Positions 11,757 through 39,731 of a DNA stretch of 44,534 nucleotides are shown piece after piece. The translations under genes were made by a program, and so were the position numbers. The notes beneath the pieces were generated by a model that saw only the letters and a list, made by a program, of their open reading frames with translations, was not told where the DNA came from and did no database searches. The first letter of the stretch is position 1. The number at the start of each line of letters is the position of its first letter. Origin of the DNA: Flavobacteriales bacterium (GTDB taxonomy: Bacteria; Bacteroidota; Bacteroidia; Flavobacteriales_D; Sanyastnellaceae). The stretch lies in contig CANHWU010000004.1 in the NCBI GenBank assembly GCA_947464415.1, positions 1 through 44,534 of the forward strand, read 5' to 3'.

Positions 11757-12424
11757 AATTAGCGTTGGTCCCCACTCCCATCGGTAACCTCGAAGATATC
11801 ACATTAAGGAGCTTACGCTACTTGCAGGAATGCGATTGGATCTTTTGCGAGGACACCCGATACAGCTCCAAGCTGCTCGCACATTATAAGATTCAGAAGC
11901 CGCTCTGGAGTTATCATTTGAACAATGAGCACAAGACGCTGGAAAAAGCCGTTGAAAAAATAAAAAGACTAGAATTGACTTGCTTGATTACAGATGCGGG
12001 AACCCCAGGAATTTCAGATCCAGGGTATTTATTAGTCAGAGCTTGCATTCAAGAGGGTATTGCAATTGAATGCTTACCTGGGGCTACGGCATTTGTACCC
12101 GCCTTAGTGATGAGCGGATTCCCTTGTGAAAAATTTTATTTTGAGGGCTTTCTACCGCAAAAAAAAGGACGCGAAACCAGAATCAAGGCACTTCTGCAAG
12201 AAGAGAAAACATCTGTGCTGTATGAATCTCCGCACCGCATTGAAAAAACCCTCGATCAGTTGATACAATGGGGCGGCGCAGAAAGAAATTGTTGTATTGC
12301 CAGAGAACTTTCCAAACTCCATGAAGAAATTTTCAGGGGAACTGTAATGGAAGCTAAGCAATGGGTGGTACAAACCGCACCAAAAGGCGAATTTGTTTTC
12401 ATCTTGTCTGCGTTAAAAGATTAA
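11753..12424 (+). CDS. rsmI: 16S rRNA (cytidine-1402-2'-O)-methyltransferase RsmI
   Basis: A 223-aa SAM-dependent methyltransferase of the tetrapyrrole-methylase fold. The family blocks are present: LVPTPIGNLEDITLRSL, EDTR, DAGTPGISDPGYLL, PGATAFVPALVMSGF, FEGFLPQKKG, YESPHRI and ARELSKLHEE. RsmI modifies C1402 in the decoding centre of 16S rRNA. ATG 11753 forms an ATGA overlap with the preceding gene and begins exactly at the family N-terminus (MKLALVPTPIG). Many homologues have a C-terminal extension of about 50 residues; this one ends right after the core, as is common in Bacteroidota. Confidence 0.95.
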   Translation: MKLALVPTPIGNLEDITLRSLRYLQECDWIFCEDTRYSSKLLAHYKIQKPLWSYHLNNEHKTLEKAVEKIKRLELTCLITDAGTPGISDPGYLLVRACIQEGIAIECLPGATAFVPALVMSGFPCEKFYFEGFLPQKKGRETRIKALLQEEKTSVLYESPHRIEKTLDQLIQWGGAERNCCIARELSKLHEEIFRGTVMEAKQWVVQTAPKGEFVFILSALKD

Positions 12425-30001: not shown

Positions 30002-30577
30002 ATGACAATCATTGAGCAACATCTGGCGGAGGCCCATTCGCTACTATCCAAAGTAATGCAAGATCATACATTCATTGCATCTGTCGAACACGCAACTCAA
30101 TTGATGATCAAGACTTTACAAAATGATGGCGGCTTGTACAGTTGCGGAAATGGAGGAAGTATGTGTGATGCAATGCACTTTGCGGAAGAACTTTCAGGTC
30201 GATATAGAGATGATCGTCCCGCCCTTCGGGCTGTTAGTATTTCTGACCCATCCCACCTGAGTTGTGTAGGTAATGATTATGGATATGACAGGGTATTTGC
30301 TCGATTCATAGAAGGGGTGGGGAGATCAGGCGATGTGTTGTTAGCCATCAGCACAAGTGGAAATTCTCGAAATGTCATTGAAGCCGCAAAATCGGCCAAG
30401 ATCAAGGGGATTCAGGTTATTGGTCTCACAGGAAAGGACGGTGGTTTGCTCGCCCCATTGTGCGATGTAGAGATCAGAGTGCCTTGGATAGGATATGCCG
30501 ATAGAGTTCAAGAAATACATATAAAAGTAATACATGCATTGATAGCGGGGATTGAAAAAGGTCTTTTTACAGCATAA
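30002..30577 (+). CDS. gmhA: Sedoheptulose-7-phosphate isomerase (GmhA)
   Basis: A 191-aa SIS-domain enzyme that converts sedoheptulose 7-phosphate to D-glycero-manno-heptose 7-phosphate, the first step to the LPS core heptose. Seen: LYSCGNGGSMCDAMHFAEELSGRY (phosphate-binding and catalytic region), AISTSGNSRNVIEAAKSAKIKGIQVIGLTG, and the C-terminal catalytic EIHIKVIHAL (Glu and His of the family). The length matches GmhA. It lies near two glycosyltransferases, which supports a role in lipopolysaccharide or glycan synthesis. The start ATG 30002 is preceded by a -7-like GATATTCG four nt away. Confidence 0.95.
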   Translation: MTIIEQHLAEAHSLLSKVMQDHTFIASVEHATQLMIKTLQNDGGLYSCGNGGSMCDAMHFAEELSGRYRDDRPALRAVSISDPSHLSCVGNDYGYDRVFARFIEGVGRSGDVLLAISTSGNSRNVIEAAKSAKIKGIQVIGLTGKDGGLLAPLCDVEIRVPWIGYADRVQEIHIKVIHALIAGIEKGLFTA

Positions 30578-30673: not shown

Positions 30674-33600
30674 GTGGTAACAAATTTACTAAGTCAAAAA
30701 AAGAATTGGCTGATGTTGTCAATGCTTTTATTGTTCTTTATAACAACAATTGCCCAAACCACCAAAGGCGTAGTAGAATCTGCGGATGTGCCTCATCCTT
30801 CAGCACATTCTGGAAATGTGTATGCCTTGATTGTGGGGGTCAGCAATTATCCTTACGTCAAACCGTTGAACTTTGCAGAAGAAGATGCTTTGTTGTTTTT
30901 TGAGTTTTTGCGTTCAAAAGCTGGAGGAGAAGTTCCAGAGAATCACATCAAGCTTTTACTCAATGAGCAAGCCACCCACGCCAATGTAACAGCAGGCTTG
31001 GCGTGGTTGAACAATAGTCTGGGTGCCCAGCCACAAGACGGGGACAGGGTATATATTTATTTGAGCGGCCATGGGGACGCGTATGATGCGAGCGAAGCGT
31101 ATTACTTGTGTTATGATAGCAATCCGGCAGGAGATAAAAACAACTATCAATTGGGAGGAGCGCTCAATATTGGGATCATGAAGAACCGCTTGGCGGCAAT
31201 GGTCAAAAAGGGGGTAGAAGTAATATTGGTGGTGGATGCCTGCCGCAGTGGAGATGTGCCGGGAGTGCGTTCTGGAATTGGCAATCCTTATCAAAGCGTA
31301 ATAGAAGAACCGGTGGGTGAAGTGTTGTTGTTGTCAGCAGGGGCTAATCAGTTTGCATTGGAGGACAGGCGCTGGGGCGGAGGACATGGAGGATTTACTT
31401 GGTATTTGATCAAAGGGCTGAGCGGAGAGGCAGATTCTGATCAAGACGGAATGGTATCTTTGATAGAGGTAGAGAGCTATACCAAGATGAAGGTTTTTGG
31501 TGATACCAAGCAAATGGGTGCACCGCAGACACCACATTTTTGTTGTGATAATAAATTTGATTGCGTATTGTCGAAAAAGGATGAGGTGTTCAGTCAGCGG
31601 ATTCGGGCGGAGGAATCGGGCAATACCAAAGTAGGACTCACCGCGTTTGCCGCCAGGGATGCATTGGAGAAAGCAATGTTCGAGAAAGAGGAGTTGAAGC
31701 AAGCGTATTTTGCATTGAAGAAAGCCTGCAAGGAGCAGCGATACTTGGGAAGCAATAGTGCGTGGAGCATTTGGGAAGATTGCAAAGGAAAATATACGGC
31801 GCAAGAAATTGAACCCATCCGCATGTATCTCATGGGCGCACTGGCCGCCGAAGGACAAAAGGCCATCAATGAAGAGATGAATGTGAGTTTTGAAAATTCT
31901 CCCAAATACGAGTATTATGTATCAAGAAGGCAATGGGTGGATGCAGCCATTACATTATTAAAATCTCCAGACGAAATCACGGGAATTCAGGAGATGTGTG
32001 ATTTTATAAAGGCGTTAGAATTAAATACCTCTGTCACGAATGCCTTTCCTTACTTGGATTCAATTGTATATACCTATCAAGGTGAGATGCACAAGGCGAA
32101 GAGCATTCAACCGTATGATGAGGCAGATAGTATTTTGAAAAAATTAGAAAAGTCTTTCAGTAAAAGTGCCGTATATTATTTCATGCTGCAAAGTCATTTG
32201 CAAAATAGACAGAATTACTATTTAGAAGATCATTCACAAGAGCGAAAAAAGCATTTGCAAAAGGCGATGCAATTAGCACCATTTTGGGCAAAACCCATAG
32301 CAATGGCCATTGTGTTTAAGTTATTCAACAAGGAAGAATTGGAAGAGATTATCAATCAACGAAAAAGGGCAGATCCGTCCAATGCTGATCATCTCTATCT
32401 ATCTTTTGTACTCAAGAACTTTCATTTACCGATACAAAGGCAAAGCTCATTAAGTGATTTGGAAAGCGCATTTTTGTTGCGACCCAGTACCGCAATGCTC
32501 TTCAAGTTCATTCAAGAGCGTTACTTGAATTATTTGCTCCCGATGGAGAAGTTTTTATTTACGGAATTTGATCAAATTTATCAGGCTTCGGAGAAGGAAT
32601 GGCAGTCATTTGAGAAGACGATGAATTATTATTACAATAGTCCTTATCATGCGGTGGAATGCGGGAGTGATTCATCCTCGGGAGTTCGAAAGTACATCAA
32701 CATGGTTACGGCTTTTGCGGTGAGGTGTGGTCATCCCGATGTGGCGATGCGATGGCTGGAAAAGGAAGAGAGTGTTTGTCCTAGCTATGATACAAGACAA
32801 TGTATGGCCATATTGGCTAAATATGTGAAGAAGGATGATGGGCTTGCAAAGAAATGGGATGATAAAGCCAGAACAATCAACACGGGACAAGAAGTTTTAC
32901 TGAATTATTACGGGGCAGATAAGGATAAAATACCACTACCTCTTCAGGGCAAGGCGCTTTATCAGAGCGCTAAATACTTTAATCTTGCTTTATACGGCAG
33001 GGATGATTGGATGATGGAGGAAAAAAAGTTTGTAGACACATTGGGAGGATATGGAGAAGAATGTTTTAAGCTCGCATTTGCATTAAGATTTCTTTCGAAT
33101 AAGCACATTAAAAACGGGAAGTCCAATTTCGAAAATTGGAATGATCTACTAGATGAAATACGTAGAGTGGATCGTCCTGATTTGGCTCCATTGGCATTGA
33201 GTTCAGCACGATTTTATGGTATTTTAGATTCCATAACCATTTTTTTACACGATGATCAATTAAGTTCTTATTTAGAGACTTCCCCGATGTTGAAGACTCC
33301 TGTTGTGCTCTTGGACGCTGCGCAAAAGAATGATTCAAATAAATGGAATGAGACTTTATCTCAGGCATATGCAGCGTTGGGTAATAATCAATTAGGACTA
33401 GCGAATTCATTGGTTTTTAGCAAGAAAAATGCGGTATACAGTGAAACCCCTTTCTTCAAGCAAACTTTTCTTAATCCTAAGAGCCAGATGGATCGTTTGG
33501 TATTGCTTCAGATGTATGGCGCTTGGGCAATGTATGAAGAGATGTTCCAGGTTTTTAAAATGTTTGATTGGAACCATTTGAGCGCTATTCAGCCAATGGT

Positions 33601-33823
33601 GTTGGCCTCAATTGTGATAGCTTGTTCCAATGTAGAAGATGCTAAAATTCAAGAAGAAATGATGAACATCTTGATTCCTTTTGCATTTAATTCTCCAGAT
33701 CAGGATTATTCAACTGCTATTTCTAGTGTACAGGCTCATTTCTTTACGAGAACCAAGATAGGAGATGAATTAAGAAATAAACCGGAGTACAAGCGGATTT
33801 ACGAGAAATATGTACAAGACTAG
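30674..33823 (+). CDS. Secreted caspase-like (peptidase C14) protein with large helical C-terminus
   Basis: A 1049-aa protein: a signal peptide (residues about 1-28, KKNWLMLSMLLLFFITTIAQ), then a caspase p20-like domain (about 48-290). Catalytic residues are His133 in YLSGHGD and Cys190 in VVDACRSG; ALIVGVSNYP starts the domain and LLSAGANQFALE follows. The loop DSDQDGMVSLIE (254-265) matches an EF-hand calcium loop. Residues about 310-1049 are mostly helical with TPR-like stretches (YFMLQSHLQNRQNYY, KKHLQKAMQLAPFWAKP) and no recognised enzyme motif. It is probably a periplasmic or surface cysteine protease (Arg/Lys specific in many bacterial homologues) with an interaction scaffold. Its activation and targets are unknown. 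Not in an obvious operon. Confidence 0.88.
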   Translation: MVTNLLSQKKNWLMLSMLLLFFITTIAQTTKGVVESADVPHPSAHSGNVYALIVGVSNYPYVKPLNFAEEDALLFFEFLRSKAGGEVPENHIKLLLNEQATHANVTAGLAWLNNSLGAQPQDGDRVYIYLSGHGDAYDASEAYYLCYDSNPAGDKNNYQLGGALNIGIMKNRLAAMVKKGVEVILVVDACRSGDVPGVRSGIGNPYQSVIEEPVGEVLLLSAGANQFALEDRRWGGGHGGFTWYLIKGLSGEADSDQDGMVSLIEVESYTKMKVFGDTKQMGAPQTPHFCCDNKFDCVLSKKDEVFSQRIRAEESGNTKVGLTAFAARDALEKAMFEKEELKQAYFALKKACKEQRYLGSNSAWSIWEDCKGKYTAQEIEPIRMYLMGALAAEGQKAINEEMNVSFENSPKYEYYVSRRQWVDAAITLLKSPDEITGIQEMCDFIKALELNTSVTNAFPYLDSIVYTYQGEMHKAKSIQPYDEADSILKKLEKSFSKSAVYYFMLQSHLQNRQNYYLEDHSQERKKHLQKAMQLAPFWAKPIAMAIVFKLFNKEELEEIINQRKRADPSNADHLYLSFVLKNFHLPIQRQSSLSDLESAFLLRPSTAMLFKFIQERYLNYLLPMEKFLFTEFDQIYQASEKEWQSFEKTMNYYYNSPYHAVECGSDSSSGVRKYINMVTAFAVRCGHPDVAMRWLEKEESVCPSYDTRQCMAILAKYVKKDDGLAKKWDDKARTINTGQEVLLNYYGADKDKIPLPLQGKALYQSAKYFNLALYGRDDWMMEEKKFVDTLGGYGEECFKLAFALRFLSNKHIKNGKSNFENWNDLLDEIRRVDRPDLAPLALSSARFYGILDSITIFLHDDQLSSYLETSPMLKTPVVLLDAAQKNDSNKWNETLSQAYAALGNNQLGLANSLVFSKKNAVYSETPFFKQTFLNPKSQMDRLVLLQMYGAWAMYEEMFQVFKMFDWNHLSAIQPMVLASIVIACSNVEDAKIQEEMMNILIPFAFNSPDQDYSTAISSVQAHFFTRTKIGDELRNKPEYKRIYEKYVQD

Positions 33824-36953: not shown

Positions 36954-39731
36954 CTATTCTGCTCCCTTCATAAATTCTTTAGAAATCACGCCTTCTGAAC
37001 CGACTAGCTCCAACATGTACATTCCAGAAGCAAATGAGCCCGTGGCTACTTGAATTTGAGCGCTTTGTCCTGCTCCATTCAATGATTGAGAAGATACTAT
37101 TCTTCCTGAAATATCGCGAACATTTAACTGTGTGAACGAACCATTGGCTGGAAGTTGAACATTCAATACTTCGCTTACGGGATTAGGAAACAAATGCATT
37201 TGTCTAGCTTTATCAAATTCATCCACGTTTACATTACCCAAGATGTTGATATCATCGATATACAAATGGTTACTCGTGTATGAAGACGTGAAAACAAATT
37301 TAAACCTTACATTATTAGTCTCATAAGTGGTTGGTATGGTTACCTGCTTTTCCACCCAATGTGAAGAACCGTTCGGAACGAAGTCTACAGAATAAGATCC
37401 TGCCGTTACCAACTCCTCCGCATCTAATGATGTTCTGAACTGCCAATCCTCTCCACAAGTACGGCTTGACCAAATCTCTAAGGTTTCTGTTGCGTCCGTC
37501 AACGTTGATGCGCCTGTAGCATAAGCATATCGGAAACTTAACTTTCCTCCAGACAACAAGCTCAAATCCATAGATGGCGTAATCAACTCATCAACATCGT
37601 ATCCTCTGTAACCATTTACACTCGGAAGCACATCGTTATTGTTCAACCAAAGACAACCATTGGGCTCTGTGCCGCTTGGCTTGTATCCTGCAAAATTGGA
37701 GTAGTTCCAATTGGATTCATTTCCACCCATATTGTATGCCTGAAATGCATGTTGTGTAATGGGATTCACATTGCAATTCTCTTGCATCACTCCGGACCAC
37801 TCTGGCCAAGTAGGGGTAACATAAATGGCCATGGTACTGGTAGTGGTGGTGCTTCCCACGGAATTAGTAGCGGTAAGAGTGACAGTTTTCCACCCATGGC
37901 TATTGAAAGTCACGGTTGGGTTCTGGTTGGTACTGGTAGCAGGGGTAGCATCTTGGAAACTCCACTCCCAAGCAGTAGCTTCTGCGTCTGATGAGTAATC
38001 AAAGAAGGTAATATCACTGCCCTGACAAGCGATTTTGGTTTCTGGATAAAAATCAGCTGTAGGAGCGCACAATAAATCATTGATTCCATCAGTACCCGTG
38101 GCCGCTAAATTCTCTGGAGTAGAAAGACTCATTCTGTTGGCGACAGGTGAATTCAAAGCCCCAATCATACGATCCTTTTGTCCGTGAGTAAACATCATAG
38201 AACAATATGAATACTCCATGTAGTTCTGAACATTCTCTATGGTTCCATATGAACCTGTGAAATTTACGTTATCCACTGCAAAGCTTCCTGCCACATTTTC
38301 CGCATTCCATGCATAAATCCGAAAAGTAACACTTCCGTTATTTATGTTATTAAAACCAGGTCCAGAGAGATTTACTTTGCTCCCTACTTGGTTTGTGCTA
38401 ATATCATTCGCAAAGAATAAAACATTGCCACTTTGAACTGTCAAAGCTGGATTAGCAGGGGTAATAACCGCCGCCAAATTGGTAGAAAAATTATTTACAC
38501 TAGAGCGAACGGCAAAACAACGAGGACCGTGCGTACTTCTTTGAACATCAAAAGTTATACCTGTCAAAGAGAGCATTTGAGATAAATCGTTAGACAGGGT
38601 AAATTCATAGTATTGATCTGTATTGATAGAACCTGTCATTGAAGGGAAATTATTGTTCTGATCAGTAGCCCCAGTACCCCATCCAGTGAAACCAAAGGAG
38701 CCTGTGGTAGCGGGTTGATCAGAAACTCCATGGGCCGAAAAAGGAGAAAAAACCAATGCAGGAATCAAGCCATTGGAAGTCAAAACTGAGTCCCCCACAA
38801 AAGGAAGAGTGCTAGGATCTACAGTCCCTGACGCATCATTTACGGCGGAGAACTTGTAAGCTGTTTGTAAGGCATCTGTCATCAATGGTAATACCATGTT
38901 ATCACACTCATAATCATACACATTTCCACAATTATCATGACCTGCTGTAGGAGGAGTATCAGAGACGTTGTCATCACCACATTCTACTTCAGGTTCATTG
39001 GTACCACCCCATGTGTGTGGCAGATCCAGCCAGTGACCAATTTCGTGTGTCAAAGCGCGACTCGCCCATGTGGCTGCCGGAGGCAATGATCCGATGTAGT
39101 CATAACGAATAATAATCCCATCCTGCCAAGCCGAAGAGGCATCGGCCACTCCTGATGGACGATAAGCATACCCCGCTACCCCATCTTCCATATCGTTGAT
39201 GATCCAAACATTTAAATATTTGTGACGAGGCCATGGATTCAATTTAGAAATATCATTTCCCACATAAGTCAAAGTAGAAGCAATGCGGTCTATACCATTG
39301 GTACAATTGCCCAACGGATCAATGGTAGCCAATTTGAATTGGAATTTACAATCCGCAATCAACGGCTGGAAAGGAGGTACTACATCCGCAGTATCCTCGT
39401 TTTGCTTGTTGTAGTCACGGTTTAGAATGGCTATTTGATCGTATATATTCTCATTGGGAATATTCTCAATTCCATACTGATGAATAATGTGAAATACCAC
39501 TGGAATGGTGTACACCACGCTGGAATCGCGAGTTTGTAAATTATTGTTTCTGATATAATCCGCGATGAAAGCGTCTTGGTACGCTTCCCATTGCAATACC
39601 TGAGGATTCTTAGCAATTTGCTTAGCTCTCGCATGATGCTCACCACATCTAAAGTCATGCTGGTGCTGGGCCGTTAAGGTACCGATGGTACCCATTAACA
39701 ACGCCATTAAAAATGAATATCCTTTTTTCAT
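36954..39731 (-). CDS. Secreted M43 (pappalysin-type) zinc metalloprotease with PKD domain and T9SS sorting tail
   Basis: A 925-aa protein. Signal peptide (1-21); propeptide-like region; M43 catalytic domain with zinc motif HEIGHWLDLPH (His229, Glu230, His233, His239; the usual Gly of HExxHxxGxxH is Asp). Residues about 285-497 form an inserted beta-sandwich (GSFGFTGW, YYEFTLS, FAVRSSVNNF, FRIYAW, FAVDNVNF). The Met-turn NYMEYSYCSMM comes only at about 503. A PKD domain follows (about 557-640), then a carbohydrate-binding or MAM-like domain, and a C-terminal T9SS type A sorting domain (MHLFPNPVSEVLNVQL). It is predicted to be exported and anchored or released at the surface. Substrates are unknown. 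Confidence 0.92.
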   Translation of the reverse strand: MKKGYSFLMALLMGTIGTLTAQHQHDFRCGEHHARAKQIAKNPQVLQWEAYQDAFIADYIRNNNLQTRDSSVVYTIPVVFHIIHQYGIENIPNENIYDQIAILNRDYNKQNEDTADVVPPFQPLIADCKFQFKLATIDPLGNCTNGIDRIASTLTYVGNDISKLNPWPRHKYLNVWIINDMEDGVAGYAYRPSGVADASSAWQDGIIIRYDYIGSLPPAATWASRALTHEIGHWLDLPHTWGGTNEPEVECGDDNVSDTPPTAGHDNCGNVYDYECDNMVLPLMTDALQTAYKFSAVNDASGTVDPSTLPFVGDSVLTSNGLIPALVFSPFSAHGVSDQPATTGSFGFTGWGTGATDQNNNFPSMTGSINTDQYYEFTLSNDLSQMLSLTGITFDVQRSTHGPRCFAVRSSVNNFSTNLAAVITPANPALTVQSGNVLFFANDISTNQVGSKVNLSGPGFNNINNGSVTFRIYAWNAENVAGSFAVDNVNFTGSYGTIENVQNYMEYSYCSMMFTHGQKDRMIGALNSPVANRMSLSTPENLAATGTDGINDLLCAPTADFYPETKIACQGSDITFFDYSSDAEATAWEWSFQDATPATSTNQNPTVTFNSHGWKTVTLTATNSVGSTTTTSTMAIYVTPTWPEWSGVMQENCNVNPITQHAFQAYNMGGNESNWNYSNFAGYKPSGTEPNGCLWLNNNDVLPSVNGYRGYDVDELITPSMDLSLLSGGKLSFRYAYATGASTLTDATETLEIWSSRTCGEDWQFRTSLDAEELVTAGSYSVDFVPNGSSHWVEKQVTIPTTYETNNVRFKFVFTSSYTSNHLYIDDINILGNVNVDEFDKARQMHLFPNPVSEVLNVQLPANGSFTQLNVRDISGRIVSSQSLNGAGQSAQIQVATGSFASGMYMLELVGSEGVISKEFMKGAE

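Follow-up and report, generated by a model that had tools for sequence, protein, structure and literature searches.

Caspase homologues fused to TPRs in prokaryotes were already on record in 2012, together with 28 caspase homologues in one Bacteroidetes genome and a caspase-CHASE2 fusion in a cyanobacterium (PMC3501461). In the literature searched, no tested function is reported for caspase-TPR proteins, and on function the first-pass annotation was right to call secreted caspase-like proteins of this size little studied. In TPR-CHAT (Craspase), too, a clan CD cysteine protease is joined to a TPR solenoid. The enzymatic activity of the orthocaspase (bacterial metacaspase) MaOC1 from Microcystis has been measured, and in T. 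brucei MC2 (TbMC2) two aspartates, Asp95 and Asp211, make the pocket for basic residues (PMC6426788).

Here we describe a caspase-like protein of 1049 aa encoded in a stretch of 44,534 nt (the window) that is one complete contig from a draft assembly. With the caspase-TPR proteins of Bacteroidota (Lacibacter, Terrimonas, Runella, Saprospiraceae) it shares the export signal, the same invariant caspase residues, the linker and a helical tail; however, their tails carry recognisable TPRs and the window tail does not, and several of their genes stand in tandem arrays or beside CHASE2 genes, whereas the window gene stands alone. The window protein resembles MaOC1 in its C14 fold, its His/Cys dyad and its putative acidic pocket residues, but the activity of the window protein is predicted and, unlike MaOC1, it is exported with a long tail. 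In TPR-CHAT the TPRs precede the protease and the protein is cytoplasmic and CRISPR-linked, whereas the window protein has the reversed order and is exported.

The gene occupies positions 30674..33823 (+; the features given below for this gene and its two neighbours are on the same strand), with a GTG start codon and 1049 codons. This start is preferred because starting at a later in-frame ATG would shorten the signal to only ~14 residues. That the frame is real, as the first-pass annotation had it, is supported by a collinear homologue of 1100 aa in the same genus, which argues against chance. A signal peptide, also claimed there, is predicted for residues 1–27 (30674..30754): by simple hydropathy the N-terminus runs from KK through a hydrophobic core (peak 2.92) to TTIA-QTT, with cleavage near TTIA|QTT, and 45 of the 50 aligned family members begin in a similarly hydrophobic way. 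The placement between gmhA and the ribosomal cluster was confirmed. Upstream lies a gmhA-like SIS-domain gene (30002..30577; Pfam SIS_2, E 9e-27) and downstream rplM for ribosomal protein L13 (33975..34424), which is 91–93% identical in congeners. No evidence was found for a functional link between the gmhA-like gene and the caspase gene, and the locus showed neither a partner gene nor an operon. Beside the ribosomal cluster, positions 36954–39731 (−) encode an M43 metalloprotease that is secreted and carries both a PKD domain and a T9SS sorting tail.

The caspase domain spans approximately residues 45–303 (30806..31582). Peptidase_C14 is the sole significant Pfam family in the protein (residues 50–287, E 6e-12, 46.1 bits against a cut-off of 21.4, profile positions 3–221 of 233), and the model of this part aligns as a caspase fold with Arabidopsis metacaspase 4 (Z 24, 2.6 Å over 215 residues) and the bacterial protein GSU0716 (Z 21.4). 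The Pfam match and the model both extend to about residue 287–303, which suggests a small-subunit-like part after the catalytic cysteine; a p10 domain is the feature that sets metacaspases apart from orthocaspases, which lack it. NCBIfam and PADLOC returned generic or sub-cut-off caspase matches only, among them the EACC1-associated caspase model NF047832 (47 bits, below the curated cut-off of 140), and the PDB held no sequence match to any solved protein. Assignment to a defence system was dropped: PADLOC gave its generic caspase model only (residues 48–218), and export and the absence of partner genes argue against it.

The complete dyad proposed earlier, His133 (31070..31072) and Cys190 (31241..31243), stands at the positions then given; both residues are invariant in the 50 aligned members, together with D71, D188, E230 and E265, and in the AlphaFold model both lie at or near predicted strand ends in a caspase-like manner. 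Judging from sequence position, Asp71 (30884..30886) and Asp188 (31235..31237) are putative S1-pocket acids and probably the counterparts of Asp95 and Asp211 of TbMC2, respectively; a preference for Arg/Lys would be consistent with these two invariant aspartates. In the small-subunit region, the EF-hand-like loop D254-x-D-x-D-G-x-V-x-x-x-E265 (31433..31468) is a possible Ca site, with D254 present in 49 and E265 in all 50 members. Because its inner positions and its length vary across the family, a Ca2+ role for this loop is only a guess. A strict EF-hand was rejected as a family feature, as insertions interrupt the loop in several relatives.

The first-pass annotation described everything behind the protease as one large helical C-terminus of an uncharacterised kind. 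Helical and large it is, as residues 303–1049 are almost wholly helical in a full-length AlphaFold model built on the alignment of the 50 members, but it is not uniform. Residues 303–405 (31580..31888) form a distinct conserved linker with pLDDT mostly 83–97. We built linker and TPR-tail profiles from 48 relatives, excluding the window protein and its congener; the linker profile matched residues 303–400 with E 4.5e-9 in the full protein and 5e-11 in the segment alone, compared with E 0.016 for the best shuffled control. The window protein thus has the arrangement of the family, in which the conserved helical linker comes after the caspase domain. Nor is the tail uncharacterised in kind, since 46 of the 50 aligned members hold Pfam TPRs at the same position and such fusions are on record (PMC3501461).

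The window tail itself, residues 411–1049 (31904..33820), is probably a degenerate TPR-type solenoid, to judge from the paired helices in both models. The match to a characterised family that the first-pass annotation would have counted against it therefore exists for the family as TPRs, but not for this tail: the TPR-tail profile of the 48 relatives did not recognise it beyond shuffles, Pfam TPR models found no match, and Pfam and NCBIfam gave nothing significant after residue 290. A claim of proven TPR repeats in this tail was dropped after that profile had missed it. One positional motif is retained, AP.W..P at residues 535–541 (32276..32296), in what would be the first TPR-like unit; it lies at +173 from Ala363, about half of the 50 members have it at +139 to +183, and it arose anywhere in a shuffled tail in 25 of 20000 shuffles. 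Block-averaged pLDDT in the full-length model is mostly 83–98 for residues 51–450, with dips in the loop 191–210 (61–64) and at 321–330 and 401–410 (73–75); beyond residue 450 it is lower, though the chain is still helical, and falls below 50 over most of 717–863. This model may be biased toward TPR by the TPR tails of the relatives in its alignment. A tail-only model also gave paired helices, at low confidence (mean pLDDT 51), and was too uncertain as a fold-search query. As the best VIA-align rows for the model were all caspase-domain matches, support for the tail fold comes from Foldseek matches to TPR proteins that are weak and partial.

Profile searches spanned the order, the class and 84,980 species genomes. 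A single-protein query of genome contigs gave no match, whereas an eight-member alignment as query succeeded. The layout of signal peptide, caspase domain, helical linker of ~100 residues and TPR solenoid proved to be widespread in Bacteroidota: one scan yielded 364 relatives, and the 78 of these that were listed are nearly all Bacteroidota records. Two loci titled Candidatus Competibacteraceae (Pseudomonadota; L151, L154) carry caspase-TPR genes that cluster with Bacteroidota in the tree, probably through contamination or misbinning. No relative was found on viral contigs, and plasmids held two distant caspase-domain matches only. In 10 of the 50 aligned members, matches to the CHAT and C14 profiles overlap. 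In the tree of these 50, the window protein branches apart from the others together with its congener. Membership of the window protein in the family is via the caspase domain, the linker and the one positional TPR motif, and it is a divergent member of an already known caspase-TPR kind.

Two to four family genes each were found at 15 loci, and three or four tandem paralogues were seen at L172, L173, L179, L180, L189 and L199. Ten sampled loci have a CHASE2-domain gene no more than ~320 bases from the family gene (for example L135 4651–5943 and L191 8861–10159), with the CHASE2 identity checked by Pfam on one member of the cluster. These loci belong to Lacibacter, other Chitinophagaceae or further Bacteroidota, Runella and, in one case, Saprospiraceae. 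The CHASE2 gene is often followed by a gene that we take, by eye, to be FecR-like and that has no Pfam match. In about ten loci the caspase-TPR gene adjoins a caspase protein of a second type of ~760 aa (e.g. L207 765–3032, L149 2571–4859 and L143 5974–8250). The genome of the window gave no CHASE2 match. It does encode further caspases, including a large WD40-caspase (G000 C48, L026, 5541–9242) that shares a caspase domain and large size with the window protein, but has its caspase behind an N-terminal WD40-like part and only ~25% identity to it. A second caspase-bearing large frame lies near 12192 on the same contig, the two genes being neighbours, and a Peptidase_C14 match at L223 (G000 C7 37779–38633), inside a frame of ~700 aa, is stronger than that of the window protein.

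Within its genus the gene is accessory. No match to it came from five other congeners, of which three are at least 93% complete; in the congener that has the homologue (G006) the gene sits in a segment of ~4.1 kb that is missing between the same flanking genes in G005, where ~115 bases are found; and a different gene set lies upstream of rplM in the four congeners examined. The two species carry the gene at different loci. A contig misjoin beside rplM is possible, the window being a whole draft contig. In four congeners (L099–L102) the place upstream of rplM is occupied by a protein of ~1110–1120 aa, in which G001 has only 47% identity to the others, compared with 74–79% for its neighbours.

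The homologue in G006, the closest relative and the only near one, differs from the window protein in a strikingly uneven manner. Residues 61–405 are ~77–92% identical, residues 421–540 35–42% and the greater part of what follows residue 540 only 15–26%, with dN about 0.1 in the conserved part and 1.1 in the far tail. Accordingly dN is 0.07–0.19 for residues 61–420, 0.55–1.45 from residue 421 on and 0.96–1.45 for residues 541–1049, while synonymous sites are saturated throughout, in the caspase part and the tail alike. Because the 5′ half shows this saturation as well, we rejected a recent gene conversion there. Other comparable proteins of the two genomes are 77–87% identical, and mature rplM 92%. 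Family pairs with caspase domains 82–91% identical have tails that are 51–78% identical, versus 22% for the window-congener pair.

We consider it reasonably probable that the protein, a member of the caspase-TPR family of Bacteroidota, is exported to the periplasm or the cell surface and acts there as a caspase-like cysteine protease that cuts after Arg/Lys and uses its solenoid to bind a partner that changes fast. The tail would bind a substrate or a partner, the latter a role already put forward in the first-pass annotation and plausible for a helical tail of this kind; the linker would relay this binding to the catalytic domain, and the active enzyme would cleave after Arg/Lys, perhaps only with Ca2+ bound in the EF-hand-like loop. 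The fast divergence of the tail would then reflect a binding partner that differs between strains or species.

The same divergence would follow from relaxed constraint, with the genus losing a once-functional TPR solenoid to decay and keeping conserved a protease that works alone. This is unlikely in our estimate, although the tail is no longer recognisable as TPR by Pfam or the 48-relative profile, is AT-rich (38% GC versus 46% in the caspase part; 34% versus 46% in the congener) and has no associated partner gene, the genome having given no CHASE2 match. Yet it is full-length and open in both species despite saturated synonymous sites, and its far C-terminal part can still be aligned between them (blastp E 5e-7). 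The log10 chance of a frame staying open over 625 tail codons is about −20 if unconstrained, so this is not just a dead tail. The alignable far end is also what favours fast divergence of a single tail over a swap, in which an older recombination would have put two different helical tails behind a common caspase-linker module. The abrupt step near residue 420, the differing base composition of the tail and the different loci of the two genes fit such an exchange, but residues 421–540 are still 35–42% identical, the far C-terminal part is collinear and the saturated dS on both sides excludes a recent event; we regard it as improbable. Least likely of all, we think, is a secreted protease with a housekeeping or nutritional role, whose tail would be a mere spacer or surface anchor: the export signal and the nearby M43 metalloprotease with its T9SS tail agree with secreted proteolysis, but the window protein gave no match to the T9SS C-terminal sorting domain (Por_Secre_tail, PF18962/TIGR04183), its gene distribution is accessory and some relatives adjoin sensor-type genes.

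What makes this member of the caspase-TPR family of particular interest is that conservation steps down from the protease to the tail. A bolder and rather doubtful extension of the partner-binding reading takes the tail for a recognition solenoid in rapid diversification, borne by an exported caspase from an accessory gene. The system would serve recognition and cleavage at the envelope, like receptor-type conflict systems, and in some relatives it may be coupled to a CHASE2 membrane sensor. If this were true, the protease part would be fixed while the recognition part changes between species. Protease and tail evolve at rates about tenfold apart in one reading frame, which would let the idea of the tail as a recognition surface be tested, and the recurrent CHASE2 neighbours of the relatives offer a concrete partner candidate.
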